A stretch of DNA of 64,000 nucleotides from Coriobacteriales bacterium OH1046 (GTDB lineage: Bacteria; Actinomycetota; Coriobacteriia; Coriobacteriales; Atopobiaceae). Both the position numbers and the translations under genes were made by a program. The notes beneath the pieces were generated by a model. That model searched no databases. It was not told the DNA's origin and saw nothing but the letters and a program-made list of their open reading frames with translations. The DNA lies in NCBI GenBank assembly GCA_004010535.1, contig RQYE01000004.1, forward strand, positions 1 to 64,000. The letters are read 5' to 3'. Of this stretch, positions 1-20,876 are shown piece by piece; the stretch's first letter is position 1, and every line of letters begins with the position of its first letter.

Positions 1-1
1 G

Positions 2-178
2 ACCTACACGGCCGTACCCGCTCCCCAGCCGGCAGCTCCCCAGCCCGCCCCGACTCCCGTCCCGGATCAGCCTGCCGCCCAGCCGGCACCGCAGCAACCC
101 GCCGTGTGCCCCGCATGCGGCACGGTCGTCGCACCCGGCTCCAAGTTCTGCGGAGTCTGCGGTCACCAGCTCTCCTAA
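2..178 (+). CDS. Zinc-ribbon protein, C-terminal fragment
   Basis: Only the last 58 residues are in the window; the reading frame enters from the left edge and stops at TAA 176-178. The visible part is a low-complexity Pro/Ala/Gln linker followed by a short zinc ribbon with two cysteine pairs, CPAC and CGVCG, about 14 residues apart. Such C-terminal or N-terminal ribbons are common on membrane-anchored or regulatory proteins of Actinobacteriota, often next to a Pro-rich spacer. The main domain is outside the window, so no function can be given. The frame is supported by the cysteine spacing and by the hairpin that follows the stop codon. Confidence 0.6.
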   Translation, partial: TYTAVPAPQPAAPQPAPTPVPDQPAAQPAPQQPAVCPACGTVVAPGSKFCGVCGHQLS

Positions 179-198
179 CCCATAGCGCATGCCGGCAA

Positions 199-230
199 GG
201 CCCCCATCGACGCTACCGTCGATGGGGGCC
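199..230. terminator. 14-bp perfect hairpin between convergent genes
   Basis: GGCCCCCATCGACG (199-212), loop CTAC, and its exact complement (217-230). It lies between the stop of the plus-strand zinc-ribbon gene (178) and the stop of the minus-strand nucleotidyltransferase (282), so it can end transcripts from both sides. Neither side has a T-tract, so it is not a classical intrinsic terminator. Confidence 0.5.
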
Positions 231-281: not shown

Positions 282-1076
282 TTATTCCCAGTCCGTATAG
301 CTCCCGTCGACCGCGCACAGCTCCTCGAAGGAATCGATCTCGTCGATATCGTCGAAGCTGCATGCACGGATGGCGATCCGGTAGTGCTCGCGGCATATGA
401 CGCAGGGCACGTCATCCCAGAAGCGCTGCCTAGCCGCCCCATCCTCGAACACGCGGGGCAGATCGTCGGCGAGCCGACGGCCATCCTCGGCGCTCCAGTA
501 GGAGATCCCGTACATATGATGGCAGCCGTCCCCGCCCTTCTTGAGATCGCAGATGATGCCATCCTCGGTCGTGAAGCACCAGTCATCGGTATGCTCCACG
601 GGAACGCCCAGGTAGTTCGACTGATACTGGTAGCGCGTGATGAGCGCAGGATTCTTGAGGAAGAGATCGGACTCGAATACGTAGGCGTTCTCGAAATGGG
701 TTGCAGCAAGCACAGCCGACGAGATGTTGTTCGTCGAGGCGTAGTCGTGATTGTCGATGAAGCGGATGGCGGGGTATTTCCCGAGCAGCTCGTCGAAACA
801 GTCGGCGAGATAGCCGCGCACGAGGTAGACCTCCTCGATGCCCACGGCGGCAAGGGCGTCGAGGAGCGAGTCGATGATGCGCACGCCATGGACCCTCACC
901 AGCGGTTTGGGGCAGGTCCTCGTGACGGGCATCATCCGCGCCCCGAAGCCGGATGCGAGCATGATAGCGCGCCTGGCGCGATACGGCTCGAGAAGAGCGA
1001 GCTCTGCGGCGGTGGCGGCACCCTCATGCGCCCGCGCGGCCAAGCGGTCGAATTCCGCGCGCGTCAGCTCACCCAT
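282..1076 (-). CDS. LicC-like nucleotidyltransferase
   Basis: This 264-residue protein is a nucleotidyltransferase of the LicC/RmlA-like family, which activates phosphocholine or a similar phospho-alcohol or sugar phosphate with an NTP. After about 35 helical N-terminal residues it shows LASGFGARMMPVTRTCPKPL, a variant of the family's G-x-G-x-R-x(n)-P-K-P nucleotide-binding signature. The later segment FESDLF carries the metal-binding Asp. The start at 1076 is chosen because AGGAGG lies 6-7 bases upstream; the next ATG at 1082 sits directly against that site. It overlaps the upstream gene by 8 bases, so the two are translationally coupled. It is the last gene of the seven-gene surface-polymer operon. 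The substrate is not visible from sequence; CTP and a phospho-amino-alcohol are inferred from the neighbours. Confidence 0.8.
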   Translation of the reverse strand: MGELTRAEFDRLAARAHEGAATAAELALLEPYRARRAIMLASGFGARMMPVTRTCPKPLVRVHGVRIIDSLLDALAAVGIEEVYLVRGYLADCFDELLGKYPAIRFIDNHDYASTNNISSAVLAATHFENAYVFESDLFLKNPALITRYQYQSNYLGVPVEHTDDWCFTTEDGIICDLKKGGDGCHHMYGISYWSAEDGRRLADDLPRVFEDGAARQRFWDDVPCVICREHYRIAIRACSFDDIDEIDSFEELCAVDGSYTDWE

Positions 1077-2652
1077 GCCCATCCTCCTCGTACAGGGGCA
1101 TGGCAGCATCGCAGTAGGTTTGCGCGGCGCGGTACCAGATGTAGAGCCACGCGCCCACCGGGCTGCCCTTCGCCCCCTTGTAGATCGCCCATACATACCA
1201 GTACCAGCCCACCAGCGCAACCGCAGCCAGGCAGTGGCGCTGCTCGGCCGGCGTAGCCGCCCTCCCGTAATAGAGGTCGATGACCTCGAGGGTCTTATCG
1301 GGCGGGTAGTTGGAACCCTGCGCGACGAAGTTACCCAGATCGCACGCGTAATCGCCCATGGCGGAGTATTCCCAGTCGATGAGCCACATATCGTCTCCGC
1401 GCACGAGCAGGTTGGGGCCGTAGAAGTCGTTGTGGCAGAGCACCGGCTCTCCCCCATCGGCGGCAAGGTGGTCCGCAAGCCTGCCCATCCGCTTCGCGAG
1501 CTCGGAGAAGCCGCGCGGCAGCGGGTAGTGCATGGCGCGCAGGATGCCGGCGATCTTCTCGGCCTCGGCTCGGTAGTCGAACGACCACGGGGAGGTCTCG
1601 CCGCTCTCATGCAGGCGCCGCACAAGCGAGAGCGCACGCTGCACGTGATCGCGCTTGCCGTAGTCGAATGGTTCGCAGCCATCGATGAAGCGCGAGAGCT
1701 TCCATCCCTCGGCGGGGTCCTCGTACACGAAGGTCTCGTCGAGGCCCAGCTTGCGGGCGATATCCAAGGCGTGCGCCTCGGCGGCGCGGTTGATGATCTC
1801 ATCGGTTCCCGCCCCGGGGTGGCGGTACACGTACACCGTCCCCTTGCAATCGAAGCGGAACGAGAGGTTGGTGAGGCCCTGCTTGATGGGAACGACATCC
1901 GTGATGTCGCGCCGCTCGCAGCACAATGCGGCGCAGATGTTGTCCAAGATGGAAAGATCGATGTTCTCCACGAAATCGCGGTCGTAGGCGGAGAGATCGT
2001 TGAAGCTCTTGAACTCGTGCACAGCATCTTCGGGAAGCACGCGCGCCTGCAGACGGATCTCATCCGCATGCTGGGCGTAGACCTGGTCCCAGAGCATGGA
2101 TGCGAACAGAGGCTCATGACTCTCGTACTCGAGGATCCTTGCAAACGCCGCACCGTCTTCTTCCGAGAAGAACGCAGGCCCCTGCAAGATGAGGCGGCTC
2201 GGGATCTGCGGGGAGAGCGCGCAGATCGTCCCATCCCCTCCGATCTCGGCCCGAAGCTCCCGTTTGGAACCCGCGCGCTCGACGAGCGTGGCAAGCGAGC
2301 CATCTTCGACACCAACGAAAGGATTCTCGGGAAAGTACTGGTCGGATGAGCACACCCACGCGCCGGGAAGCACATCCCGCGCGATGAGCAGGGAGGCGGC
2401 GCTGCCCGTATCGGCATAGTCGGCATTGACGAGGATATGCGCTCCGAACCCATCCTCGAGGTAGAAGAGCGATTCCTTCATGTAGCCCACCACAACAGAG
2501 ACATCGTCCACGCCCGCCGCGCAAAGCTGGCGGATGAGCCGCTCGATGAGCACCTCGCCGCGCACGGTCAAAAGGGCTTTGGGCAGCTCGTAGGAGAGGG
2601 GGGCCATGCGCGTTCCCGATCCTGCCGCAAGGATGATCGCACGTCGGGCCAT
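1069..2652 (-). CDS. Nucleotidyltransferase-choline kinase fusion (LicC-LicA type)
   Basis: A 527-residue two-domain enzyme. Residues 1-230 are a LicC-like nucleotidyltransferase with LAAGSGTRMAPLSYELPKAL near the N-terminus. Residues 250-520 are a choline/ethanolamine kinase-like phosphotransferase with the catalytic loop CHNDFYGPNLL (Brenner motif HxDxxxxN) and the metal-binding IDWEYS. Together they could phosphorylate an amino alcohol and link it to CMP, as LicA and LicC do for choline in phosphorylcholine-decorating bacteria. The start codon directly follows the stop of the upstream amidohydrolase (TAG then ATG), and the end overlaps the next gene by 8 bases. The domain calls are firm; choline as substrate is inference, because ethanolamine or an unusual amino alcohol would fit equally well. 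Confidence 0.85.
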   Translation of the reverse strand: MARRAIILAAGSGTRMAPLSYELPKALLTVRGEVLIERLIRQLCAAGVDDVSVVVGYMKESLFYLEDGFGAHILVNADYADTGSAASLLIARDVLPGAWVCSSDQYFPENPFVGVEDGSLATLVERAGSKRELRAEIGGDGTICALSPQIPSRLILQGPAFFSEEDGAAFARILEYESHEPLFASMLWDQVYAQHADEIRLQARVLPEDAVHEFKSFNDLSAYDRDFVENIDLSILDNICAALCCERRDITDVVPIKQGLTNLSFRFDCKGTVYVYRHPGAGTDEIINRAAEAHALDIARKLGLDETFVYEDPAEGWKLSRFIDGCEPFDYGKRDHVQRALSLVRRLHESGETSPWSFDYRAEAEKIAGILRAMHYPLPRGFSELAKRMGRLADHLAADGGEPVLCHNDFYGPNLLVRGDDMWLIDWEYSAMGDYACDLGNFVAQGSNYPPDKTLEVIDLYYGRAATPAEQRHCLAAVALVGWYWYVWAIYKGAKGSPVGAWLYIWYRAAQTYCDAAMPLYEEDGHG

Positions 2653-4218
2653 CTAGATCTTCGCCTTGCTTGCAAGGCCGCAGATGAGGGCGGTGACCAT
2701 GTTCTTGGACTGGGGGCGGTAGGGCTTGCCGGATAGGATCAGGCGCTCGACCGCGATGGCGCCGAAATCGGCGGCGGGAACCTCGTAGGGATTGGCGGAG
2801 AGCACGACCATATCGGCGATCTTGCCCGCCTCGAGCGAGCCGCGCTCGTGCTCGTCGAAGCTGGCCCATGCTCCGTTGTAGGTGCACATGCGCAGGGCCT
2901 CCCGACGCGTGAGGCGCTCATGCCTGCTGGGGTTGTTGACGGCCTTATCCATCCACATGATGGGGTCGGGGTCGGTGCAGGGTGCATCGGAGCCTGCGGA
3001 GATGACGACGCCCTTGTCCCAGAGGGTGCGGATGGGATTCAGGCGTGCAGCCCGCGCAGGCCCGAGCAGCGACTCGAGGTAGCCATCGGACTCCTGCGGC
3101 CAATCGATGAAGGAGGTCTGCATGGGTATCTGGATACCGTAGTCCGCGCAGATGTCGATACCCTCTGCGGTGGGCAGGCAGCCGTGGATGATGCCGTGGC
3201 GGTGATCCGCGCGCGGGCCGGCATCGAGCGCGGCTTTGAGGCAGCGGGCGGCCTGCGCGAAGGCGGCATCGCCGATGGCATGCATCTCGATCTGGAGACC
3301 GGCTTCGTGGGCCTGCCGGCAGAAGCCGATAACCTGCTCGTCGGTGTAGTAGAGCACGCCGCAGTCCTCGCTCGCGGCATAGGGCTCGATGAGGGCGGCA
3401 TCGACGGAGCCGAAGCAGCCGTCGAGGGCGCAGGCGAAGCAGCCGCCGATACGCGGGAGCTTGCGGGACGTCGCGACCGCAACGTCCATAGACTGCGGGA
3501 ACACGCGCATCTGGAAGCCATGCTGGGCGCCCCTGCCGACGATCTTCTCGAGCGTGATGTCGAGGTCGCCGGCAAAGCCGATGCCCGACACCGTGTGGAC
3601 CATGCCGATGCCCTTGGACGCGAGGTAATCCATGGCATCGAGCATGTTGGAGACGAGCTCGGGGAGCGAGAGCGAGGCGGTGATGAGGCCCGAGGCGGCG
3701 AAGAAGGCCTCCTGGTTCATCTCGCCCGTATCGGGATGGTAGCCGCGGAGACCCCTGACCTTCTTATCCGCGAGTTCGAGCAGCCTGGAGTTGACCACGC
3801 AGGCATGGCCATCGTACTTGACCATCATGAAGGGCCTGTCGGAGCAGACCGCGTCGAGCTCCGCGCGGGAGAGCAGGCGCCCCTCGGCTACCGAATGCGG
3901 CGAGGCGCCGAAGGCGATGAGGATCCTCGCTTTGGAGCGCCGCGCGAAATCGGAGGCCATCTGCATGATCTCCTCATTGGAACGCGCAGCCATGACGTTC
4001 AGCCCGGCATTGAAGGTGGCGAAGCTCGCGAAGTGCTCGTGGGTGTCGACGAAGCTGGGCGCAAGCGCGCGGGTGCCCAAGCTGATGACGGGACCGCCGG
4101 CGTATGCGGACGGGAGCTCGTCTCCCACGAAGACGATGCGCCCCCGATCCTCCACGAGATAGCGGAAGACCTCGTCCTGCGCGTTGACGGTTAAGATGGA
4201 GCCCTTATAGACGTTCAT
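2653..4218 (-). CDS. YtcJ-like amidohydrolase (Amidohydro_3)
   Basis: A 521-residue metal-dependent hydrolase of the amidohydrolase superfamily, YtcJ/Amidohydro_3 branch, at the usual length. It shows the N-terminal beta-sandwich strands, then FVDTHEHF, a variant of the metal-binding HxH, later MHAIGDAAF and a C-terminal SAGSDAPC with the metal-binding Asp. There is no signal peptide, so it should be cytosolic. Family members cleave amides, carbamates or exocyclic C-N bonds of unknown metabolites, and the substrate here is not predictable. Its place inside an operon of nucleotidyltransferases suggests that it trims or supplies an amine precursor of the ligand. It is separated from the opine-dehydrogenase-like gene by 30 bases. 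A paralogue lies at 46538-48163. Confidence 0.75.
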   Translation of the reverse strand: MNVYKGSILTVNAQDEVFRYLVEDRGRIVFVGDELPSAYAGGPVISLGTRALAPSFVDTHEHFASFATFNAGLNVMAARSNEEIMQMASDFARRSKARILIAFGASPHSVAEGRLLSRAELDAVCSDRPFMMVKYDGHACVVNSRLLELADKKVRGLRGYHPDTGEMNQEAFFAASGLITASLSLPELVSNMLDAMDYLASKGIGMVHTVSGIGFAGDLDITLEKIVGRGAQHGFQMRVFPQSMDVAVATSRKLPRIGGCFACALDGCFGSVDAALIEPYAASEDCGVLYYTDEQVIGFCRQAHEAGLQIEMHAIGDAAFAQAARCLKAALDAGPRADHRHGIIHGCLPTAEGIDICADYGIQIPMQTSFIDWPQESDGYLESLLGPARAARLNPIRTLWDKGVVISAGSDAPCTDPDPIMWMDKAVNNPSRHERLTRREALRMCTYNGAWASFDEHERGSLEAGKIADMVVLSANPYEVPAADFGAIAVERLILSGKPYRPQSKNMVTALICGLASKAKI

Positions 4219-4248
4219 GTGCGCCTCGCAGAGACAGTGCAGACTTGG

Positions 4249-5328
4249 TTACAGATGGTAGAGCGCCTTGAGCGCCTCGATACCCGCAGGGATGCCCTCG
4301 AAGAACTCACGGGCAGAAGAAACGCCGGGGTACCATTCCCACACATGATCGATATGCGGCGTCCCGATCCCGGCGAACGCGGCGAAATCCTTGATTATCT
4401 TGAGACCGTAGGGGAAGTCTGCTCGGAAATACCTTGAGGTGAAATCAGGTGCCCACTGCCCGGGCGCGACCTGCCTCATGGGGGAGGTCAAACCCTTGAA
4501 AGCGGGGATATGCGCTATCTTCGCGGTCATTGCCGCAGCATCGGGACTTTCGTAATGCGCTTTGAGCGACAGGACCTCCGACAAATCGATATCGAGCATC
4601 CTCTCAAGAGCGCGGCAGACCCGCTGCAGCTCGTCATCGCAGGCGATCAGCAGCTCAGAGCTGGCATCATCCCAACTCTCGTAGAACAGGATGTTGGCGG
4701 GATACACGATGCCGGGTTCCCACGATGAGAACATCGAACAGAGGCGCGTGGTGTGCAGGATCGGGTTCGACGGGGTGAGCGTCTCGACAAGGTAGTTCGG
4801 CAGGACCCGGACGGGCATCTCGAAGAGCTCGGCGACCACAGAAGCGCGATCCTGCGCGATCCGGGCGGGCACCGATGCAAGCTGGAGCTCCGCTTTGCGT
4901 CCGAGCATGTACACGCTCTTTCCGCGCTCCTTCAAACGCGCCACGCAGTGGACGCGCTGAAGGCCGAGAAGGGCAGCCCCCTTATCGATGCAGGCGCCGA
5001 AGAAGAACTCGGCGGCCGCGCCGGGCATCACGCAGACCGTCTGGCCGGCTTCGATGCAAGCCGCCAGCTTCTCCCCGAGATCGCGGAACATGAACGTCGG
5101 ATAGGTTATGCAGATCATCTCTGCACCGTCGACGGCAACGGCTAGGTCGTCGGTGATGCAGGAAAGCGTTCCCTGCAGGATCAGCCCATCGTCGGTATCG
5201 AACACGTCTATCGTCTTGGAGAATATCTGCGGCTCCGATGCACGCAGACGCACGGAGTGTCCACGTGCAGCGAACTCCGCTGCGATGAGCGTGCCTATAT
5301 TTCCCCCGCCGATGACAGCGATTTCCAT
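4249..5328 (-). CDS. Opine/octopine dehydrogenase-like NAD(P)-binding protein
   Basis: 359 residues. The N-terminus MEIAVIGGGNIGTLIAAEF is a Rossmann fold with the GxGxxG dinucleotide-binding loop. The remainder resembles the NAD/NADP octopine/nopaline dehydrogenase family, including the C-terminal helical domain with conserved His residues in TTRLCSMF and SLKAHYE regions. Known members reductively condense an amino acid with a 2-oxo acid, or run the reverse reaction. The gene sits 20 bases downstream of the nucleotidyltransferase-PLP fusion and 30 bases upstream of the amidohydrolase in the same operon. An amine-linked acid as intermediate in ligand synthesis is a possible role, but this is inference. 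Ketopantoate-reductase-like enzymes share the fold, so the exact reaction is open. Confidence 0.65.
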   Translation of the reverse strand: MEIAVIGGGNIGTLIAAEFAARGHSVRLRASEPQIFSKTIDVFDTDDGLILQGTLSCITDDLAVAVDGAEMICITYPTFMFRDLGEKLAACIEAGQTVCVMPGAAAEFFFGACIDKGAALLGLQRVHCVARLKERGKSVYMLGRKAELQLASVPARIAQDRASVVAELFEMPVRVLPNYLVETLTPSNPILHTTRLCSMFSSWEPGIVYPANILFYESWDDASSELLIACDDELQRVCRALERMLDIDLSEVLSLKAHYESPDAAAMTAKIAHIPAFKGLTSPMRQVAPGQWAPDFTSRYFRADFPYGLKIIKDFAAFAGIGTPHIDHVWEWYPGVSSAREFFEGIPAGIEALKALYHL

Positions 5329-5348
5329 AGTCGCCCCCCCTCGGATCC

Positions 5349-7166
5349 CTATCGATACAGCACAGATCTCATGGCCCTGACCAAGCAGGCGTTATCATCC
5401 GCGCCGCGCACGGCCACGCGCACGAACTGCCGCCCGTCGCGTTCGATCTTCCCGGAGAGGTCCTTGATGAGGATCCGGTGATCCGCCAGGAGCCGCCTCG
5501 TGAGCTCGCGCGCGCCCACGGGCCCCGTGAGCTCGACCATGAGGTAGTTGGCCTGCGAGGGAAGCGGGCGCACCCCCTCGATCCGCGCAAGGCCATCGGC
5601 CAATGCGGTGCGGGCCGCGCGCAGCCCCACGAGGGCGTCTCGGTAATCGCCTAGATACTTCTCGGCGATCTGGAGGAAGAACTCGCCGAAAGAGTTGATG
5701 TTCCAGATCGGCACCGCGCGCTTGATCGCGGCGATGAGCATGATATCGGCGGAGGCGGCGACGCCCAGGCGCACGCCCGGCACACCGTAGGACTTGGAAA
5801 TGCTCTTCACCGCCACGAGATGCGGGTAGCGCCCGAGCAGTTCGTCATCGAGGAAGGTATTGGCGGGCTCGTCTGAGAAATCGGAGAACGACTCGTCGTA
5901 TACGAGGCGGATGCCCCGCCCTTCGCACCACGCAGCCAGACGCGCGACCTCGGCCTTGGGCATGTAGCAGCCCGAGGGATTGTCGGGATTGATGAGCACG
6001 AGGGCCTCGAGATCCTTGTCGGCGAAGAAGGCCATGAGCTCGTCGGCGGTGTAGGAGAAGTCCTCATGCGCGGGGACGAAGACGACCGAGCGCTCCTCAG
6101 GATAGCGGTTGGGATACTCCTCGAAGGTGGGGCGGATGAAGCCGACCTTGCCCCCGAAACCCTCGAGAAGGGCCTTGATGAGCTCCGCAGCGCCGTTGCC
6201 CACCACGATGCGGTCCTGAGCCACGCCGAAGGTCTTGGCAGCCAGCAGCGCGTTCACGCGCATGCCCGAGGGATACTGGGCGACCAGCGTATCGAAGCTC
6301 GCACGCATCTCGTCGAGCAGGCGCCGGGGCGGAAAGTAGGGGTTCACGAGATAGCAGAAGTCGGTGAGGCGCGGATAGCGCCAATAGCCGCCATAGCGGG
6401 ACTCGAGCAGGCCGAGCCGCTCGTCATCGTCGGGCGAGAACATGGACTCGGCGATATCGAGATCCTGGATGTCGTCGATCTCGTACCAGAGCCGGCCATC
6501 GAGGCGCTTGGCCTTGAGCTCGGAATCGTCGAGGTGCATGATGACGCGGAGCACCTGCTCGTAGTACTCGTTGTTGCCGAGCGCCTTGACGTATGCCTCG
6601 AGGAAGGGCACGTAGTGGGTACGCGAGAACTCCTTCGAGAACTTGTAGATGTTCACGGTCTTGTAGTACGAGGAGATGTCTTGGAACCTGAACTTCCTGC
6701 CGGGGACGAAGGCGACGATATCGTCGTTCTCGTCCACCTTGACGACGGTGCCGTCCATCCAGCTCTCGTACGCGTCCACGAGGGCGAGCGTAGGGCGGGG
6801 ATCGTCGACGAGATCGCGCAAGATCCCCTCCTCGAAGATGATGTCGCTCTCGAGCAGCAGGGTGTCGTCCTCCTCGAGATCGCCCATGGCAAGCGAGAGC
6901 GAGTAGATGTTGTTGGTCTTGTCGTAGAACGGGTTGAGGCGCCATTCGATGGGCGTCGCGACGTCGAGCGTGGAGACATACGCGCGCAGGCCCTCCGACC
7001 GGTAGCCGTCGACGATGACGATGCGCGCGAGGCCGAGCTCGTCGAGCTGCGCGAGGGCGCGTTCGATGAGGGTTGCGCCGCACACCTCGATCATGCACTT
7101 GGTGTTGTCGGCGGTGAGCGCCTTGAGGCGCTTGCCCATGCCCGCCGCGAGGATGATAGCCTGCAT
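5349..7166 (-). CDS. Nucleotidyltransferase-PLP enzyme fusion (FrbH-like architecture)
   Basis: A 605-residue fusion. Residues 1-245 are a LicC-like cytidylyltransferase (LAAGMGKRLKALTADNTKCM signature; LLESDIIF metal site). Residues 255-605 are a fold-type I PLP enzyme of the HisC/CobD group, with INPDNPSG, YDESFSDF and the Schiff-base lysine in SISKSYGVPGVRLG. The same order of domains is known in FrbH, which attaches CMP to an amino-phosphonate and decarboxylates it. CobD-like enzymes decarboxylate phospho-threonine or phospho-serine. A chain that produces a CMP-activated amino-alkyl ligand would therefore fit. No PEP mutase is in the window, so phosphonate chemistry is not shown, and a plain aminotransferase is also possible. 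It lies 12 bases after the TagB-like gene. Confidence 0.75.
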   Translation of the reverse strand: MQAIILAAGMGKRLKALTADNTKCMIEVCGATLIERALAQLDELGLARIVIVDGYRSEGLRAYVSTLDVATPIEWRLNPFYDKTNNIYSLSLAMGDLEEDDTLLLESDIIFEEGILRDLVDDPRPTLALVDAYESWMDGTVVKVDENDDIVAFVPGRKFRFQDISSYYKTVNIYKFSKEFSRTHYVPFLEAYVKALGNNEYYEQVLRVIMHLDDSELKAKRLDGRLWYEIDDIQDLDIAESMFSPDDDERLGLLESRYGGYWRYPRLTDFCYLVNPYFPPRRLLDEMRASFDTLVAQYPSGMRVNALLAAKTFGVAQDRIVVGNGAAELIKALLEGFGGKVGFIRPTFEEYPNRYPEERSVVFVPAHEDFSYTADELMAFFADKDLEALVLINPDNPSGCYMPKAEVARLAAWCEGRGIRLVYDESFSDFSDEPANTFLDDELLGRYPHLVAVKSISKSYGVPGVRLGVAASADIMLIAAIKRAVPIWNINSFGEFFLQIAEKYLGDYRDALVGLRAARTALADGLARIEGVRPLPSQANYLMVELTGPVGARELTRRLLADHRILIKDLSGKIERDGRQFVRVAVRGADDNACLVRAMRSVLYR

Positions 7167-7178
7167 CTGTCCTGCCCC

Positions 7179-8426
7179 CTATTCGGATGGATTCACCAGC
7201 TCGTCGTGCTTTCCTATGAGATAGTCGACCGTGCGCGCAACGCTCTCGCCTTGGAAGGCCCATGTCTGCCGACGGGCACGCGCCCTGCCCTCTGCCAGCG
7301 CGGTGTCTGCGATGACCTCGTCGATGACCGCCCGCATCCTCGGGAATTGGTCCCTCGAGAGTTCGGGGCCGAGCGCAGCGTAGATGGCAGACGTCCAGAG
7401 CGGCCCGTCGAGCCACGCGGAATCGTAAACCGCGTTGTCGAGGGTGCTCTGCGTGGAGATGACCGGCTTGTCGAAGATGAGGGCATAGTCGAGAACGACG
7501 CCCGAGAAGTCGCTGATCATGATGTCGGCGCGATGGAGGACCTCGAAGTTGTCGTTGTCGAAATTCCAGCTCAGGGACTCGCCGTCGGGGTATGCGGCCA
7601 TGAGGGAATCGAGCAGCTTCTTCTCTGCGGTCATGGACTGCGGATGCGGGCGGATGACGATATCGTATCCGGTGGCGAGCAGGGCGTCGATGACCTCCTT
7701 CCCATAGACCGAGAGGATGGCGCTCTCGCCCCACGAGGGGGCGAGCAGGACGCAGGGATGCTCGTTGCGGACCGGCGCGAGGGTCTCGGCGCGCTCGGCC
7801 ATGATGTCGAGGTAGGTGCAGCCCACGATCTCGAGCTCCTTGGGAGGGAGTTTGCGGAGCTCCTCGAGCGTGCGGATCTCATCGGCCTGGAAATCGCATG
7901 AGAGCAGGACCGCATCGTAGAAATCGAGGCCGAACATGCGATAGCCGGCTGCGGTCCCCAATGCATGGAGGATATGCACGTAGCAGTCCACGTTCTTGGA
8001 ACGCTTCCACTGGAGCACGTCGAGGCCGGGCGTGGTCGAGAGCACCACGTTCGCGCTCATCATGTTGAGGCGGGCGAAGGCCTTGTTTCCCTCGCCGATG
8101 AACTCGCACACCACATGCTCGTAGTCCTCATCGAGCGCAGGGTCGTCGGGCGAAGCCGTCCAATAGCGGAGCTCCACGCCGCGCCGCTCGAACTCGTCGC
8201 AGATGGGCTTGAAGATGTTCCAGTAGCGTTTGTGGTCTGCGAAGACCACGAACGGGAGCTTCCCCTCGTCGACCAGCCTGGCATTGCTTCCGGACAGCAT
8301 GACGCGGATGCTGATGAGCATCTTGCGCAGGAAGAAATACCCCGTGGTCACCAAACCGATGAGCAGTGTGAAGAGCATGCTGCCCGTACCGGGGTCGATG
8401 TAGCGGGAAAGGTGGGCGGATATCAT
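7179..8426 (-). CDS. CDP-glycerol glycerophosphotransferase family protein (TagB/TagF-like)
   Basis: 415 residues. It starts with an N-terminal hydrophobic segment (about residues 15-40), so it is probably membrane-associated on the inner face. The C-terminal half has the family marks IRPHPQS and SDFSGVVLDYALIFDKPVI, as in TagB/TagF enzymes that transfer glycerol phosphate from CDP-glycerol to a teichoic-acid primer or chain. A LicD-like or other polyol-phosphate specificity cannot be excluded. A ribosome site (GGTGAG) precedes ATG 8426. The gene begins 10 bases after the YidC/LtaS-like fusion and ends 12 bases before the nucleotidyltransferase-PLP fusion, which places it in the surface-polymer operon. 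Confidence 0.85.
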   Translation of the reverse strand: MISAHLSRYIDPGTGSMLFTLLIGLVTTGYFFLRKMLISIRVMLSGSNARLVDEGKLPFVVFADHKRYWNIFKPICDEFERRGVELRYWTASPDDPALDEDYEHVVCEFIGEGNKAFARLNMMSANVVLSTTPGLDVLQWKRSKNVDCYVHILHALGTAAGYRMFGLDFYDAVLLSCDFQADEIRTLEELRKLPPKELEIVGCTYLDIMAERAETLAPVRNEHPCVLLAPSWGESAILSVYGKEVIDALLATGYDIVIRPHPQSMTAEKKLLDSLMAAYPDGESLSWNFDNDNFEVLHRADIMISDFSGVVLDYALIFDKPVISTQSTLDNAVYDSAWLDGPLWTSAIYAALGPELSRDQFPRMRAVIDEVIADTALAEGRARARRQTWAFQGESVARTVDYLIGKHDELVNPSE

Positions 8427-8436
8427 GGGTGCTCAC

Positions 8437-11235
8437 CTACTCCGTGGGACCTTGGACGAGCGTCCAGTTATCGGGATCGAAGATGTCATCATGCACGCTG
8501 TACCAGTAGCCATCACCGGTCTCGAACACCGTGCCGTGGTGGTTGGTATCGACGTTGTGATGCCACGAGGTGGTGACGAGCTGATCGTGGGCATGCTTCT
8601 CCTCGTCGGTCATAGGCTTGCCCGTATAGGGGTTCACCGGATCCTCGATGATGCCCTCCAGGGCGATGAGGGGCGTATCGGCATTGGTCATGAACTCGTT
8701 CGAGACCTCGAAGCCGCGCGCATCGAAGTCCTTGACCATGAGCAGCGGGTTGAAACTGTTGACGTTCATGCGGATGAAATTCCAGATATCCTGGTCTCCA
8801 TCGATGAGGAGATCTTGGAATTGGGCGTATGGATAGCCGTGGTCCGAGACGATGATGATGCGCGTGTTGTCGTAGGCTCCTCCCGCGCGCAGGTAATCGA
8901 ACCACCTCCCCAGTTGGATGAACGTGGCCATGCTGGCGTGGTAGCTGGCCAGATAGGTGGGGTTGCTCATGTCGATGGTGCGGCCATCGACCGTGAAGCG
9001 GCCGTAATCCTCGAGGCCCTCGTTGTCGACGAACTCGGAAAACCCGTACTCGGGCAGTTGGAGCATCTGCGGCGAGTGCGTCGTATCGTTGTGCAGGAGC
9101 ACGAAGTTGTCGCTGCCGCCGCTCTCGATCGAGGTCAACTCGTCCATCAGGGCCAGCACCGCGTAGTTGTCGATGAAATCGCTGTTGGAGGCGTGGCTGA
9201 CGAGCGTCGAGTAGTAGTTGCCCCGATCGTAGACGGTCGTCTGGAGCACGACGGGTACGGCCTTGAAGAGGCTGTAGAACACGAAGCTGCGCGTGAGGTT
9301 CTCCGCAGAGCGGTTGCGCCCGTTCTCGAGGAAGTGGGCGCTGTAGGCTCCTTCGACCCGATAGGTGGAGAAGCCGTCGATGGCATCGAACATGCTGAAA
9401 TCGCGCGTTCCGTACGTGTAGGAGACGAGCGGCGGATCGAACTGCACCGCCGAGAAACCCGCTTCGGTGAAGAGCGTGGGCATGACCTTGATGGCCTCGT
9501 TGTGCTTCTCGGAAAGCAGCTCGGTATCGCGCCTGTTCATCTCGGTGGGCGTGTACTCGTAGCCGCCGTAGAGCGGGGGGCCTCCATAGACGGTGCAGGA
9601 ACCGAAGGAGAGCGTGTTGGGATAGTAGGTGAATCCGTCGAACTGCTCTCGGAGCTCGGGCCGCTCGGCCAGGATATAGGGCATATACGTGCCCATGGCA
9701 CGGTCCATGAAGAGCACCACCACGTTCCTCCCCTCCTGCGAGAGGTGGATGAGGGGGACGATGCTGCCATCGGCATCGAAGAGCGCATCTGCTGCGCCGC
9801 CATCGCCTGCGGAAGCGCCCTGGGCGATCTGGACGCCATGCGCCTCCATCTCGGCGGTTGCGGCTTGGATGGAGACGAGGTTGGGTACCGCCGCAGCTGC
9901 GGCCACGATGATGAGGATGACGAGCGCCGCATTGACGAGATCGCGCTTTCTGCGCCACAGGACGAGCATGACCGCAGCGAGCACGACGAGCACGGTGAGG
10001 TTCAGGAGCTTCTCCCCGAGCGGGTAGGAAGGATAGGCCTCGAATACCAGATCCTTGGTGATGGTGCCGAGATGCTGCCCGAAGAAGAGGAAGTCGACGA
10101 GGCAGATGCCCGCGAGGAGCCAGTAGGCGCACGCGATGAGGCGGCGGGTCTTGAGGTTGCCGAGGTAGAAGAAGATGCCGCCCCAGAAGATCACGAGACC
10201 GCCGATAATGGAGCTCGTGGTGACGATATGGCGCACGGGACTCGCCGCCGCATACTCGTCGATGAACTCCTTGGGCGAGGCGCCGATGAGCGCAGACGGT
10301 ATGAGCATGCCGAGGATGACGGTGATGAGCGCCGCAGCGAGCAGAAACGAACCCGTCGGAGAGGGCCCCTCGGATTGCTCCGCACCATCTTCCCCCCTAC
10401 GGGCATCCAGGACAGGCGGGAAGAAGAGGAAGGCCTCCACCAGCACCGCGAGCGCGCATGCGCCCAGCAGGCGGCGCGGCGAGGCGAGACGGCCGGACTG
10501 GAGCAGGTACACCCCGAGGGCCGCGAAGAAGACCTGCACGAGCAGGGCGAATACCCTGCGCGGATGCTTGAGCAGCTTGAAGAAGACGTTCTTGGCCAGC
10601 GAGAAGACCTGATTGCAGGTCCAATAGAAGACGAGGCCCGCCGGGCTCTGGTAGAGCAGCACGAGGAAGGCGGCCGCCAAGCCGTACGCTTGGATCTTGT
10701 CGCGCAGGGGCAGGCCCTTGGTATAGATGTATGTCGAGAAGCAATTGATGAGCGTCATGGCAATGGGCAGGATATTGAGCGCGAAGCCGCCCACCGTGAC
10801 CAGCTGGTCGGGTTGCGAGAGGTCGTTGATGAACAGGAAGCGCGTCCCCTCGAGATCGGCCAAATTGGAGAGATAGCTGTAGGCCGCCATGAAGAAGGGG
10901 ATCTGGAGCACAAGCGACAGCGAGCTCCTGAGCGCCTGGACGGGCTTGTAGCCCTGCTGGCGATAGTAGGTCGAGAGCATCATGTACTGCTCGTCGCCCT
11001 TGAAGTGCGCCTTGATGTGATCGACCCAGCACGCCATGGAGGCCTGCTTGCCGCGCTCCTCTTCCTGGATGAGATCGGCGCGCCGGTAGAGCGGGAGCGC
11101 CAGGAAGTTCACAGCCAAGCTCACACCGATGATGGAAAAGCCCGGATTCACGAAGAAGCGGTTGAGCACCGCGTAGACCAGCTCGATGAGGTAGATGATC
11201 GGCGCGACGATGACATTGTACGGAATCGTGAGCAT
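8437..11235 (-). CDS. YidC/Oxa1-like domain fused to an LtaS-like sulfatase-fold synthase
   Basis: A 932-residue membrane protein. Residues 1-255 match the YidC/Oxa1 insertase family: several membrane helices, a charged cytoplasmic hairpin (KAHFKGDEQYMMLSTYYRQQ) and helices ending in SPAGLVFYWTCNQ, the usual YidC end pattern. More helices follow to about residue 580. The remaining 350 residues look like an extracellular alkaline-phosphatase/sulfatase-fold domain: VVVLFMDRAMG (first metal site), a Ser/Cys/Thr cluster GSCTVYGG where LtaS has its nucleophile Thr, and VSDHGYPY (second metal site). LtaS-type domains polymerise glycerol phosphate or transfer phospho-groups to surface glycans. The start ATG 11235 opens the first helix; only a weak GCAGG site lies upstream. 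It is the first gene of the operon, so the domain may make or decorate the polymer served by the downstream genes. Confidence 0.8.
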   Translation of the reverse strand: MLTIPYNVIVAPIIYLIELVYAVLNRFFVNPGFSIIGVSLAVNFLALPLYRRADLIQEEERGKQASMACWVDHIKAHFKGDEQYMMLSTYYRQQGYKPVQALRSSLSLVLQIPFFMAAYSYLSNLADLEGTRFLFINDLSQPDQLVTVGGFALNILPIAMTLINCFSTYIYTKGLPLRDKIQAYGLAAAFLVLLYQSPAGLVFYWTCNQVFSLAKNVFFKLLKHPRRVFALLVQVFFAALGVYLLQSGRLASPRRLLGACALAVLVEAFLFFPPVLDARRGEDGAEQSEGPSPTGSFLLAAALITVILGMLIPSALIGASPKEFIDEYAAASPVRHIVTTSSIIGGLVIFWGGIFFYLGNLKTRRLIACAYWLLAGICLVDFLFFGQHLGTITKDLVFEAYPSYPLGEKLLNLTVLVVLAAVMLVLWRRKRDLVNAALVILIIVAAAAAVPNLVSIQAATAEMEAHGVQIAQGASAGDGGAADALFDADGSIVPLIHLSQEGRNVVVLFMDRAMGTYMPYILAERPELREQFDGFTYYPNTLSFGSCTVYGGPPLYGGYEYTPTEMNRRDTELLSEKHNEAIKVMPTLFTEAGFSAVQFDPPLVSYTYGTRDFSMFDAIDGFSTYRVEGAYSAHFLENGRNRSAENLTRSFVFYSLFKAVPVVLQTTVYDRGNYYSTLVSHASNSDFIDNYAVLALMDELTSIESGGSDNFVLLHNDTTHSPQMLQLPEYGFSEFVDNEGLEDYGRFTVDGRTIDMSNPTYLASYHASMATFIQLGRWFDYLRAGGAYDNTRIIIVSDHGYPYAQFQDLLIDGDQDIWNFIRMNVNSFNPLLMVKDFDARGFEVSNEFMTNADTPLIALEGIIEDPVNPYTGKPMTDEEKHAHDQLVTTSWHHNVDTNHHGTVFETGDGYWYSVHDDIFDPDNWTLVQGPTE

Positions 11236-11369: not shown

Positions 11370-14300
11370 CTAGCGGTGCATGTCGACGAGCGTGGCGAGG
11401 CGATCGCCCGCAGCCATGACCGCTTGGGCATCGGCGCGCCAGCTCCAGTTGCCCTCGGCGACACCCGGCACGTTCATGCGGCTCTCGGCACCGAGGAGCA
11501 GCACATCCTGGAGCGGCAGGATGGCGACATCGGCTTCGGCGCCCATCACGCGTTCCGTGAGCTCGACGGCGAGCTTCCGCGCCTCCTTGGCAGATGCGGC
11601 GCGATCCTCGCACCACGCGAGGATCGTCGTCGTGTCGTGCGTTCCCGTGAACGCGACGGTATCCGGCGCAGGATGGAAGCCCTCGAGCACGTCCTCGTCC
11701 GAGAACTGCACCACGCTCATGCCCGGTGCCCCCACCTCGGCGAGCAGGGCGCGCACGGCGGGCGTGACGGTGCCGAGATCCTCCGCCAAAAGCGGCAGCG
11801 GACCGAAGCGATCGTATGCGGCCGTGAAGAGCTTCTTGCCCGGTCCGAAGCGCCAGGTGCCCTCCAAGGCGGTCTTGCCGGCAGGTATGCCGTAGTAGGA
11901 CGAGAAGCCCACGAAATGGTCGAGGCGCACGTAATCATAGAGCGCGAACATGCGGCCGAAGCGCTCGAGCCACCACGCATAGCCGCCTTTCTCGAGCACG
12001 TCCCAACGGAAGGTGGGGTTGCCCCAGAGTTGGCCTTGGGGGCCGAGCGGATCGGGAGGTGCGCCCGCGAGGACCGCCGGATCGAAGATGTCGGGGTGAG
12101 CCCAGGCATCGGCGGAATCGGCCGCCACGTACATGGGCATGTCGCCGATGATCGCGATACCGCGCTCGGCGGCGTAGGCTCGGATACGCCCCCACGCCCT
12201 ATCGAAGAGGAGCTGATCTGCCATGTGGCGGCGCACGCGCAGCCTCAAGGGCCGCTCGTCGAGGAGGGCGCGGTCGAAGCTGCGGTACCGCTCGGGCCAC
12301 TCCCACCACGGATCCTCCCCCATCGCATCCTTGAGGGCGCGGAAGAGGGCGTACGGCTCGAGCCATGAGGCGTTATCATCCACGAAGCGGCAGCCGCGCG
12401 CGATGTCCTTCTCGGCCAAGCGGCAGTCCCGCTCGGCACGGGGCCCCACAAGCGCGGGATCGCCCGCAAAGGCCGAGAGACCCGCGTACGGCGATCCGTA
12501 GGCATCGGTGGGGTTCACCGGCAGGATCTGCCAGTAGCGCACCCCCGCCGCATGCAGCCAATCGAGGAAGCGCATCGCCGGCTCGCCGAGCGTGCCGGGG
12601 CGTCCGGCGTTGGGCACGCTCGTGATGTGGGCCAGCACGCCCGCACCCGCCTCGAGCGGCTTCTGCAGGCGTATCTGCTCATGGAAGTGCAGCACGCTCG
12701 ATCCCAAGGGCCAGAGGGAGACCGTGCAGGAGCCATCCTCCACCACGACCGCGCGACCGGAGATGACATCGCTCGCCTGGGGTGCCGCCATGGGCAGCCT
12801 CACCTCGTGGATCTTCTCGAGGCTCGCGTTCACGAGCACGCATACGCATCCCGTGTCGCTGCGGCGCCAGAACCCGAAGACGTCATCGTTTGCCGCAAAG
12901 GGCTCGCAGCTGCCGTCGACCAGCACGGGAAGGGCCTTGCGCAGGCCGATGGCATTGCGGTAGATGGTCGGGCAGTACGGGTCGGGCGCATCCCAGGGCA
13001 TGGACGCACGGTTATAGGGATCGGTATAGCCCTCGAGGCCCAGCTCGTCGCCATAGTAGATGCAGGGGACGCCGGGAAGCGACATCTGCAGGAGCGCCGC
13101 CAGCCAAAGCCGTGAGCGCGCAAGGCCCAGCTGCTCCTCGGAGAGCCGGTAGCCCGCGCACTGCTTGTCGGTGAGCTTGCATTGGTCGGGAGCCCCTCCC
13201 AAGATGGTGAAGAGGCGCATGCGGTCGTGGGTGCCGAGCACGTTCAGGCAATTGGCCAACGCCTCGGGCGGATAGTTCTCGATCAGCTGCTCGAGGATAT
13301 CGGCAAGCTCGGCAGCCGTGGTCTCGCCGGTAAGGTAGCGGAGGATGCCCGCGCGCAGCGGATAGTTCATCACGCCGTCGAGCTCTGCGCCCTCGAAGTA
13401 CCGGCGCAGCTCGTTGTAGGCGACCTTATGGGTCGCATCCTCCCAAACCTCGCCGATGACGAGGGCATCGTCACGCTCGGCGAGCGCGGCGGCCTTGAGT
13501 TCGGCGATGAAGGAATCGGGCAGCTCGTCGGCCACATCGAGGCGCCATCCGCGCGCCCCGGCGCGCAGCCACCTTCTCACGATGCCGTTCTCGCCGCAGA
13601 TGAACGAGCGGTAATCGGGGTTGTCCTCGTCGATGTCGGGCAGATCGGCCACGCCCCACCAGCTGCTGTAGGAGCCGTCCTCCCCTATCTTGTACCACCG
13701 GTGATAGGGGGATTCGGAGCTTTGGGCGGCACCCACGTCGGGATAGTTGTCGAAGGCGTTGAAGTAGCGCGAATCGCGCCCAGTATGGTTGAAGACGCCA
13801 TCCAAGATGATGGAGATGCCATGCTCCCCGGCATCCTTGCAGAGGGCGCGGAACGACTCCTCATCGCCCAGCAGCGGATCGATGCGCGTATAGTCGGCCG
13901 TGTCATAGCGATGGTTGCTCGCTGCCTCGAAGATCGGATTCAGGTAGATCGCCGTGATGCCCAGGGCCTCGAGATAGCCGAGCTTCTCGCGGATGCCCTC
14001 GAGCGTGCCGCCGTAGAAATCCCAGGCAGCGATGGCGCCGTCATCGGCGCGCTCGTAGGAGACCGGCGCATCCCAATCCTCGACGAGGCGCCGCTGCGGC
14101 CCGGTGCGCGGCGTCGCAAGCGTCTTGGCCCGCTCGCGCCAGTCGCTCCCCCGGAAGAAGCGGTCGGGGAAGATCTGGTAGGCCACGCCCCCCCGGTACC
14201 ATGCAGGTTGGGTCGCGCGCGGAACATATACCGTGATCTGGAACGAGGGCGGCTCGCCGTAATGGAAGGTCCCCTCCCCCACCGCGTGCTCCTCGCGCGC

Positions 14301-14585
14301 CCCGTAGCTCCAGACGGAGCCGTCTGCGGCCTGGATTTTGAACGCATACCAGATGATGCCGGTACCTTCGGGCGTGTAATCGGCCGAGAAACGCGTGGCA
14401 TCGCCCTGCTCGGTGGCCTCCATGGGAATGAGGATCTCTCCATTGCCCTCGATCCACAGGCGCAGCTCGGCACCGAGCGGATCCTCGTCCCAGACATCGA
14501 TGGCCAGCTTGACGGTGCCGCCCAACTGGACGGCACCGAAGGGGCTTCTGTAGTCGGAATCCGACGTTATATGACATGCACGCAA
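11370..14585 (-). CDS. Alpha-amylase family (GH13) - 4-alpha-glucanotransferase (GH77) fusion
   Basis: 1071 residues. Residues 1-110 are an N-terminal beta-sandwich starting DYRSPFGAV, as in neopullulanase-like enzymes. Residues 120-580 form a GH13 catalytic domain with WRLDVADE (nucleophile Asp), VIGEVWED (acid/base Glu) and LGTHDRMR (third Asp). Residues 600-1071 form a MalQ-type GH77 domain with VRLDHFVGF, LLAEDLGT and TGTHDTTT. One chain can thus hydrolyse and transfer alpha-1,4-glucans. The start is a TTG at 14585: AGAGG lies about 5 bases upstream and no in-frame ATG fits before DYRSPFGAV. It begins 4 bases after the glgA stop, so it is coupled to the glycogen operon and is its last gene. 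Confidence 0.88.
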   Translation of the reverse strand: MRACHITSDSDYRSPFGAVQLGGTVKLAIDVWDEDPLGAELRLWIEGNGEILIPMEATEQGDATRFSADYTPEGTGIIWYAFKIQAADGSVWSYGAREEHAVGEGTFHYGEPPSFQITVYVPRATQPAWYRGGVAYQIFPDRFFRGSDWRERAKTLATPRTGPQRRLVEDWDAPVSYERADDGAIAAWDFYGGTLEGIREKLGYLEALGITAIYLNPIFEAASNHRYDTADYTRIDPLLGDEESFRALCKDAGEHGISIILDGVFNHTGRDSRYFNAFDNYPDVGAAQSSESPYHRWYKIGEDGSYSSWWGVADLPDIDEDNPDYRSFICGENGIVRRWLRAGARGWRLDVADELPDSFIAELKAAALAERDDALVIGEVWEDATHKVAYNELRRYFEGAELDGVMNYPLRAGILRYLTGETTAAELADILEQLIENYPPEALANCLNVLGTHDRMRLFTILGGAPDQCKLTDKQCAGYRLSEEQLGLARSRLWLAALLQMSLPGVPCIYYGDELGLEGYTDPYNRASMPWDAPDPYCPTIYRNAIGLRKALPVLVDGSCEPFAANDDVFGFWRRSDTGCVCVLVNASLEKIHEVRLPMAAPQASDVISGRAVVVEDGSCTVSLWPLGSSVLHFHEQIRLQKPLEAGAGVLAHITSVPNAGRPGTLGEPAMRFLDWLHAAGVRYWQILPVNPTDAYGSPYAGLSAFAGDPALVGPRAERDCRLAEKDIARGCRFVDDNASWLEPYALFRALKDAMGEDPWWEWPERYRSFDRALLDERPLRLRVRRHMADQLLFDRAWGRIRAYAAERGIAIIGDMPMYVAADSADAWAHPDIFDPAVLAGAPPDPLGPQGQLWGNPTFRWDVLEKGGYAWWLERFGRMFALYDYVRLDHFVGFSSYYGIPAGKTALEGTWRFGPGKKLFTAAYDRFGPLPLLAEDLGTVTPAVRALLAEVGAPGMSVVQFSDEDVLEGFHPAPDTVAFTGTHDTTTILAWCEDRAASAKEARKLAVELTERVMGAEADVAILPLQDVLLLGAESRMNVPGVAEGNWSWRADAQAVMAAGDRLATLVDMHR

Positions 14586-14589
14586 AAAA

Positions 14590-16077: not shown

Positions 16078-16085
16078 GGCACCCC

Positions 16086-17180: not shown

Positions 17181-17182
17181 TC

Positions 17183-18328: not shown

Positions 18329-18364
18329 GTTCCGCTCCTTTCGAAGAGCTGATAATCCCACACA

Positions 18365-20836: not shown

Positions 20837-20876
20837 ATGTCTCCTCTCCAGCGCAGGTATTCCTGCGCACTGATAT

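Follow-up and report, generated by a model that had tools for sequence, protein, structure and literature searches.

A seven-gene operon of Coriobacteriales bacterium OH1046 that may make a CDP-activated ethanolamine derivative and attach it to a cell-surface glycopolymer

The DNA analysed here (the window) comprises positions 1 to 64,000 of contig RQYE01000004.1 of Coriobacteriales bacterium OH1046 and starts at the contig start. Seven intact open reading frames (ORFs) with zero internal stops, all on the minus strand, were read between positions 282 and 11235. The intergenic gaps from P0001 to P0007 were 10, 12, 20, 30, 0 and -14 bases. The features of the locus are as follows.

P0001, 8437..11235, minus strand: YidC/Oxa1-like membrane domain and alkaline-phosphatase (AP)/sulfatase-superfamily domain, LtaS-like, 932 aa
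P0002, 7179..8426, minus strand: predicted TagB/TagF-like CDP-alcohol phosphotransferase, membrane-anchored
P0003, 5349..7166, minus strand: LicC/PntC-like cytidylyltransferase (residues 1-245) fused to a CobD/SMUL_1544-like PLP decarboxylase (250-605)
P0004, 4249..5328, minus strand: opine dehydrogenase with NAD-binding and Octopine_DH domains
P0005, 2653..4218, minus strand: Amidohydro_3 metal-dependent hydrolase
P0006, 1069..2652, minus strand: LicC-like cytidylyltransferase fused to a choline/ethanolamine-kinase (APH) domain
P0007, 282..1082, minus strand: third LicC-like cytidylyltransferase, with a 14-base overlap with P0006
Hairpin, 199..230, strand not given: 14-bp perfect inverted repeat with a 4-base loop, directly after the operon

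The seven same-direction genes and the domains named in a first-pass annotation were all found by ORF reading and domain search. LicC-like nucleotidyltransferase (NTase) domains occur three times (P0003, P0006 and P0007), and the APH/choline-kinase domain (P0006) and the class I PLP domain (P0003) once each. Downstream of the operon lie only the hairpin, found by sequence reading, and the end piece of a truncated convergent gene; the hairpin is a possible shared terminator in which a clear T run is absent. Other genomes of the genus carry the operon in full (L047/L171, on a single contig, with 88-96% identity; also L172), and the arrangement is therefore not a matter of chance. The search for the gene set in Coriobacteriia and Clostridia that had been suggested returned, beside these operons, sub-modules at about 90 loci, which belong to Coriobacteriia, Clostridia and other groups, and many bacteria of the gut and rumen have parts of the kit, combined interchangeably. 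Close homologues were not scattered over unrelated contexts, but clustered with LicD or TagB/YidC-sulfatase genes, with kinase-cytidylyltransferases and with each other.

The N-terminal YidC/Oxa1 domain of P0001 (Pfam 60KD_IMP, 72.8 bits) had been missed when the protein was called an LtaS-like synthase. The Pfam Sulfatase score was 21.8 bits, below the cut-off of 25, although the predicted AF2 fold of the sulfatase part clearly matches AP-superfamily enzymes (2w8s best, Z 20.7; PbgA, 19.8; EptC, 18.7; MCR-1, 18.0), and the domain has invariant D, T, H and D-H residues. LtaS was not among the 50 structures listed for it, which excludes nothing. We propose that P0001 carries out an extracytoplasmic phosphotransfer or polymer step. 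P0002 has a TagB/F-type transferase domain (Glyphos_transf, 30.8 bits; cut-off, 22.1). Among 87 loci with a homologue of the fused enzyme P0003, LicD was present in 40, TagB in 20 and both in 1 (p 1.8e-5; the loci are not independent, many contigs are cut short, and this and the later p values ignore relatedness). Such mutual exclusion is expected of alternatives, and TagB together with the YidC-sulfatase, which accompanies it in 15 of the 20 TagB loci, seem to take the place of LicD in transfer. The seven-gene operon has neither LicD nor LicB, and sister operons L137 and L170 have both, the latter as a LicB-like EamA transporter.

The first-pass annotation noted that TagF/LtaS build teichoic acids, but a glycerol-phosphate teichoic acid is not a safe assumption here, since no TagD-like enzyme was found in the host draft genome (98.6% complete), where the CTP_transf_like proteins were NadD, CoaD and RibF only. 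TagF-type enzymes normally use CDP-glycerol. It is conceivable that P0002 and P0001 build a glycerol-phosphate chain and that a LicD encoded elsewhere adds the ligand separately, as the family names and this donor preference would suggest. The host does have a LicD gene at G000:C1:490494, among glycosyltransferase genes, and its product could be the real transferase. Given the lack of a TagD-like enzyme and the exclusion between LicD and TagB/YidC-sulfatase beside the fused enzyme, we consider this arrangement unlikely, though it is the strongest of the alternatives.

The operon holds both a LicA-type kinase and a LicC-type cytidylyltransferase. LicC (1jyk) was the best solved relative of the NTase domains of both P0006 (5.7e-23) and P0007, and the kinase domain of P0006 matched 3dxq, 'choline/ethanolamine kinase family' (E 5.9e-33). 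Homologues of P0007 and P0006 form one fused protein in relatives (L167, L168, L169, L199, L200 and L206). The NTase domains were compared at the choline-pocket positions of LicC (D105/D192 and the aromatic box). P0003 has Glu/Glu and no Trp and is not of the choline type; its E106 and E203, invariant in 23 sequences, correspond to the Glu pair of the primary-amine-binding PntC, as opposed to the Asp/Asp of LicC. P0006 has Ser/Asp with Trp, and P0007 has Glu at the first PntC-type position, Asp at the second, and Trp.

P0005 matched Amidohydro_3 with 195.9 bits, and its HxH, K, H, H and D motifs were located. Its homologue adjoins the kinase-cytidylyltransferase in 15 of the 19 Coriobacteriia genomes that carry P0005 and occurs without this module in 4. 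An ethanolamine permease (TIGR00908, 446.7 against an equivalog cut-off of 381.75) was found in relatives, in five of them within the salvage operon; no TIGR00908 permease over the cut-off was found in the host genome. Among 298 genomes of the class, the permease (E<=1e-80) was present in 13, P0005 in 19 and both in 6 (P=3.8e-5), five of which have the two genes on the same strand within about 2.2 kb. Locus L201 encodes, in a single run, kinase-NTase, permease, an ornithine-cyclodeaminase-family (OCD) enzyme, amidohydrolase, NTase and LicD. Ethanolamine is the probable amine, given its permease in five sister operons and the likeness of the P0003 PLP domain to phosphoserine decarboxylases (below), and the amine would then not be wholly exotic. 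Because P0005 travels with the salvage branch, its more likely role would be to supply ethanolamine, as proposed by release from an amide, rather than to build a new amine.

P0004 matched Octopine_DH with 97.5 bits, and its H192 and D304, invariant in 18 homologues, align with H212 and D329 of octopine dehydrogenase. In two operons of one genus, whose flanking genes are 97-98% identical, the slot of the opine dehydrogenase in L137 holds an OCD enzyme in L170, and the two proteins have no similarity. Opine dehydrogenase was present in 33 of the 87 fused-enzyme loci, OCD in 13 and both in 1 (p 0.015). Where present, either enzyme directly adjoins the P0003 homologue in most loci, and both associations arose repeatedly on the tree. 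P0004 probably modifies ethanolamine after its supply, by a predicted N-carboxyalkylation. As 42 of the 87 loci have neither enzyme within the stretch examined, tailoring would be optional; likewise, many TagB/YidC-sulfatase loci lack opine dehydrogenase, and that machine is therefore not tied to a carboxyalkyl ligand. The PLP, opine and amidohydrolase genes had been thought to build a non-choline amine. The non-choline part was supported, with the opine dehydrogenase probably acting after the amine is made and the amidohydrolase shifted to supply.

Distant opine dehydrogenase homologues (24-31% identity) occur in siderophore or other contexts. Loci L138-140 (opine dehydrogenase, PLP and TagD-like proteins) were considered as the same chemistry with another cytidylyltransferase and were not used as support, their PLP protein being HisC-like (248 bits versus 167 for CobD-like). 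A DUF1015 protein beside two loci was considered as a possible serine kinase, for which the open-access literature gave no support.

If the decoration were plain phosphoethanolamine or phosphocholine, P0003 and P0006 would yield either CDP-choline or CDP-ethanolamine, with the opine dehydrogenase serving another end, say, redox balance or a free opine. The 42 loci without either reductase are compatible with this, as are the LicCA-like P0006 with its LicC-like Asp at the second position and Trp, the EamA transporter of L137 and L170, and a methyltransferase that adjoins LicD and the fused enzyme in L115 and in Gloeothece. The position of the opine dehydrogenase or OCD directly beside P0003 homologues, in the same slot of near-identical operons and through repeated association, makes it improbable, however, and the Glu/Glu pocket and the ethanolamine permease further weaken a choline-only version.

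The PLP domain of P0003 scored 160 bits for CobD and 121 for HisC (NCBIfam). Its best fold match was 6oux, the SMUL_1544 decarboxylase (Z 35.9), tied with CobD (Z 35.4), and 6oux was also the best match among PDB sequences (3.2e-45, versus 3.7e-24 for CobD). SMUL_1544 converts phosphoserine to ethanolamine phosphate. The PLP lysine K458 is invariant across 23 sequences, and fold and PLP residues agree with a SMUL_1544-like L-Ser-P decarboxylase. P0003 is proposed, as its most likely function, to be a CDP-ethanolamine synthase acting from O-phospho-L-serine. The tied fold scores would also suit a cobamide-type route from threonine phosphate to (R)-1-amino-2-propanol, but the far stronger sequence match to SMUL_1544 and the ethanolamine permease of the sister salvage operons make that amine very unlikely. 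FrbH, of FR-900098 biosynthesis, is a cytidylyltransferase fused to a CobD-like PLP decarboxylase. A phosphonate pathway with P0003 as an FrbH-like enzyme was rejected as barely credible, for although P0003 shares the FrbH domain architecture (analogous to PntC-AEPT) and related enzymes occur in phosphonate-type clusters, one with PEP mutase, no PEP mutase homologue was found in the 98.6% complete host genome or in the operon, and this genome would have no phosphonate route.

On balance, we think that the operon probably produces an ethanolamine derivative in CDP-activated form and links it to a glycopolymer of the cell surface, which largely agrees with the earlier outline of an amine that is CMP-activated for a surface polymer. 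De novo, P0003 would use CTP to activate either O-phospho-L-serine or the phosphoethanolamine that arises from it, and would carry out the decarboxylation, yielding CDP-ethanolamine. In salvage, ethanolamine released by P0005 from an amide would be phosphorylated by the P0006 kinase domain, and the cytidylyltransferase domains of P0006 and P0007 would activate the product. P0004, probably at the CDP stage, would join an alpha-keto acid (as the simplest guess, pyruvate) to the primary amine and reduce the resulting imine, so that the head group would become N-(1-carboxyalkyl)ethanolamine phosphate. The donor for P0002 would be the CDP-ligand, and P0001, either by itself or jointly with P0002, would complete transfer at the outer membrane face, a role that LicD would fill in related loci. 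What each enzyme catalyses and in which order, and which keto acid, polymer and amidohydrolase substrate take part, we infer from sequence; domains, folds, catalytic residues, module structure, permease linkage, the opine dehydrogenase/OCD swap, transferase exclusion and the lack of PEP mutase and TagD were computed.

More tentatively, and at slightly less than even chances, N-(1-carboxyalkyl)ethanolamine phosphate may be common as a surface ligand among Coriobacteriia and Clostridia of the gut and rumen. The kit that builds it would have interchangeable parts: two CDP-ethanolamine supplies, imine reduction by either of two unrelated enzymes (an opine dehydrogenase or an OCD-family protein), and attachment by either of two unrelated systems (LicD, or TagB plus YidC-sulfatase using the CDP donor directly). 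Phosphocholine decoration is a known host-interaction factor. If our reading is right, it suggests that phosphoethanolamine-type decoration occurs widely, and in varied forms, among common bacteria of the gut and rumen, and it provides a route from phosphoserine to CDP-ethanolamine within one polypeptide. It also points to genes that could account for N-(1-carboxyethyl)ethanolamine phosphate as an O-antigen substituent. The O-antigens of Proteus mirabilis contain N-[(R)-1-carboxyethyl]ethanolamine phosphate (PMC9630907). No gene for this substituent was found described in the open-access literature, and neither the residue nor such genes are mentioned in the main text of the P. mirabilis O-antigen gene cluster paper (PMC5560731). 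An opine dehydrogenase in a P. mirabilis record (25.6% identity) was rejected as a genetic link; it is not in an O-antigen cluster, and its siderophore-type locus also contains a gene resembling those of TonB receptors and a cysteine-synthase homologue. No description of the gene set was found in the open-access literature, and the kit as a whole appears to be undescribed so far.

We rate the operon as a new variant of Lic/Pnt-type tailoring. Like Lic-1 (LicA-LicB-LicC-LicD, phosphocholine), it combines a kinase with LicC-type domains and would place a CDP-activated amino-alcohol phosphate on a surface glycan, and its sister operons L137 and L170 share LicD and the LicB-like transporter. It differs from Lic-1 in de novo supply by the fused phosphoserine-decarboxylase-like domain, in an extra cytidylyltransferase, in the opine dehydrogenase (or OCD) step, and in having TagB and YidC-sulfatase in place of LicB and LicD. 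PntC-AEPT phosphonyl tailoring is described from Treponema denticola, Olsenella uli and Atopobium rimae (PMC6697681), and resembles the operon in its NTase-PLP fusion, its Glu pair for a primary amine, its surface-glycan context and its occurrence in related bacteria. In contrast, our operon has no PEP mutase and a class I CobD-like PLP domain rather than a class V AEP transaminase, and it is predicted to yield a phosphate ester instead of a phosphonate. FrbH matches P0003 as a fusion of LicC-like NTase and CobD-like PLP domains, and its substrate, 2-amino-4-phosphonobutyrate, has O-phosphoserine as its phosphate counterpart; however, FrbH belongs to an antibiotic phosphonate cluster without opine dehydrogenase, kinase or surface transferase, whereas the host genome lacks PEP mutase. 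The cytidylyltransferase step of FrbH is cited in PMC6697681. The P. mirabilis residue is the head group predicted if the keto acid is pyruvate, but what is known of it is its structure, in the O-antigen of a Gram-negative bacterium (PMC9630907). SMUL_1544 and CobD, of cobamide biosynthesis, are nearest in sequence and fold to the PLP domain of P0003, in which, by contrast, the decarboxylase is fused to a cytidylyltransferase and placed in a proposed surface pathway. Opine dehydrogenases and staphylopine-type enzymes, which reduce an imine between amine and keto acid, share the Octopine_DH fold and catalytic dyad of P0004, whereas the P0004 subfamily lies in CDP-ligand operons.

The operon (282-11235, minus strand) consists of seven intact ORFs, P0001-P0007, separated by 10, 12, 20, 30, 0 and -14 bases. 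Its genome is a 2.38 Mb draft, 98.6% complete; the window covers contig C13 from its start to 64 kb. The gene arrangement was confirmed, and domain searches recovered the domains listed in the first-pass annotation; P0001 has, in addition to the sulfatase domain listed there, an N-terminal YidC/Oxa1 domain. The complete seven-gene set was also found in the same genus, in L047/L171 (single contig, 88-96% identity) and L172. Locus L173, from the same family, has the opine dehydrogenase, amidohydrolase, NTase-kinase, NTase, YidC-sulfatase and TagB genes but not the fused P0003. Within window 1-230, the first sequence of the contig belongs to a truncated convergent gene whose end has a zinc-ribbon-like motif, and a 14-bp perfect inverted repeat (199-230) separates this gene from the operon. 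Upstream are ordinary glycogen/alpha-glucan genes on the same strand:

11370-21220, minus strand: an amylase and 4-alpha-glucanotransferase fusion, glycogen synthase, two glucose-1-phosphate adenylyltransferase-like proteins and glycogen phosphorylase.

Operon proteins were compared with other loci. The 80 named ones were the top matches of a single query; many lie on short contigs, and most come from metagenome-assembled genomes. The PLP domain of P0003, a cytidylyltransferase-PLP fusion, scored 160 bits against the CobD model versus 121 bits against HisC. By sequence, its closest solved structure was 6oux (E 3.2e-45; title 'SMUL_1544, a decarboxylase'), with CobD 1lc5 far behind (3.7e-24). 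By fold, the two tied when the AlphaFold2 model (mean pLDDT 82) was compared (Z 35.9 for 6oux and 35.4 for CobD). SMUL_1544 is known to decarboxylate O-phosphoserine to ethanolamine phosphate.

P0004 has an octopine-dehydrogenase domain, in which His192 and Asp304, invariant in 18 sequences, correspond in the alignment to His212 and Asp329, the catalytic pair of octopine dehydrogenase. Among 87 loci with P0003 homologues, 33 had an opine dehydrogenase, nearly always directly adjacent, 13 had an ornithine-cyclodeaminase-family (OCD) gene, confirmed as PF02423, and one had both. As about half of the loci had neither within the stretch examined, the modification is optional. No fewer than 23 changes in these labels were needed on the P0003 tree, with minima of 8 and 5 forced by well-supported branches. 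The strongest single result was a natural swap between L137 and L170, two loci of one genus with the same operon: between flanking genes that are 97% and 98% identical, one has an opine dehydrogenase and the other an OCD enzyme, without sequence similarity to each other. Iminosuccinate and pyrroline-carboxylate reductases are among the relatives of the OCD family, and the ability common to both families is reduction of a keto-acid-related imine.

We infer that P0004 would N-carboxyalkylate the amine of ethanolamine. A PLP decarboxylase requires a primary amine, so this step would have to come after decarboxylation; it would probably also come after CMP-activation, as loci with and without an opine dehydrogenase share the same NTase pocket. 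P. mirabilis O-antigens are known to contain a compound of this kind, N-[(R)-1-carboxyethyl]ethanolamine phosphate (PMC9630907).

Other neighbors were also observed. Loci L138, L139 and L140, which belong to a different genus in this order, have an opine dehydrogenase (35-38% to P0004) beside a HisC-like PLP enzyme and a CTP_transf_like/GFO_IDH_MocA fusion; this may be a distinct ligand pathway of an analogous kind. DUF1015 family genes directly adjoin fused NTase-PLP or opine dehydrogenase genes at two unrelated loci (L055:7683-8939 and L034:6179-7405). A diaminopimelate-dehydrogenase-like gene (L083:8899-9879) and a SAM methyltransferase gene (L115:11863-12567) adjoin P0003 homologues, which suggests that tailoring has further variants; the latter lies beside LicD, as in Gloeothece L044, and could lead to de novo phosphocholine.

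In Coriobacteriia, the P0005 amidohydrolase adjoins an NTase-kinase in 15 of the 19 genomes that have it, and five of these salvage operons (L169, L199, L200, L201 and L202) include a TIGR00908 ethanolamine permease family protein. The equivalog cut-off is 381.75 bits; the L169 permease scored 446.7, and the L202 copy was slightly under the cut-off (368.3). In a class sample of 298 genomes, 13 had the permease, 19 the amidohydrolase and six both (hypergeometric P 3.8e-5, with related loci counted as independent, as in all p values here); in five of those six, the two genes were at most about 2.2 kb apart on the same strand. The clearest case was L201, with NTase-kinase, permease, OCD, amidohydrolase, NTase and LicD genes in one run. 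Given this linkage, ethanolamine is the leading candidate for the amine that is salvaged. No permease above the TIGR00908 cut-off was found in the OH1046 genome, so any ethanolamine uptake there would be by another carrier. The earlier outline, in which the PLP, opine and amidohydrolase genes make a non-choline amine that is CMP-activated and added to a polymer, was supported for the most part, in a revised form: the candidate amine is now ethanolamine, and the opine dehydrogenase would act in tailoring.

Winged-helix (HTH_24/MarR-like) domains are fused to LicC-LicA type NTase-kinases in L137, L167-L170, L201 and OH1046 itself (contig C2, 27.5 kb; L151:1294-3072), and some of these proteins carry another NTase as well (887-960 aa). 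Metabolic enzymes that bear a DNA-binding domain in this way are possibly self-regulating.

For attachment, LicD was found less than 10 kb from P0003 homologues at 40 loci, TagB at 20 and both at one (Fisher p 1.8e-5); TagB and YidC-sulfatase occurred together at 15. Outside the window, OH1046 encodes a 1391-aa YidC/TagB/sulfatase-like fusion (G000:C13:211352-215527; L146:6352-10527), another version of the P0001/P0002 machine that is complete in one protein. This fusion and a YidC-TagB fusion in L137 support the view that YidC, TagB and sulfatase form one machine replacing LicD. The fold of the P0001 sulfatase domain, that of the alkaline phosphatase superfamily, which includes phosphoethanolamine transferases, is compatible with more than one reaction. 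The CTP_transf_like proteins of this 98.6% complete draft, assigned from sequences and neighbors, were NadD, CoaD and RibF only; therefore no TagD for making CDP-glycerol was found among them. The genome's LicC-like proteins were the operon's three and another kinase fusion, at C2:27.5 kb. On both counts, the CDP-ligand of its own operon would be the most parsimonious donor for P0002.

Among the NTase pockets, that of P0006 looks more LicC-like, that of P0003 more PntC-like and that of P0007 intermediate. The substrate nitrogen in P0003 faces Glu106 and Glu203, both invariant in 23 P0003-type sequences. They match the pattern of PntC (Glu104/Glu196, primary amine) and differ from that of LicC (Asp105/Asp192, choline) (PMC6697681); the second PntC position was placed via LicC Asp192, as the PntC sequence used stopped short of that site. 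PntC-AEPT, a full-length fusion with a layout like that of P0003, was among its Foldseek matches. The natural P0003 substrate should be a phosphate rather than a phosphonate, because PEP mutase was not found in the draft genome. At L043 (Priestia megaterium pBM700), an FrbH-like fusion adjoins a 1-deoxyxylulose-5-phosphate reductoisomerase homologue and ATP-grasp genes, an arrangement that resembles a fosmidomycin-type phosphonate cluster carrying self-resistance. The OH1046 operon is probably a variant of CDP-activated phospho-ligand tailoring of surface glycopolymers, of which the Lic and Pnt pathways are known.
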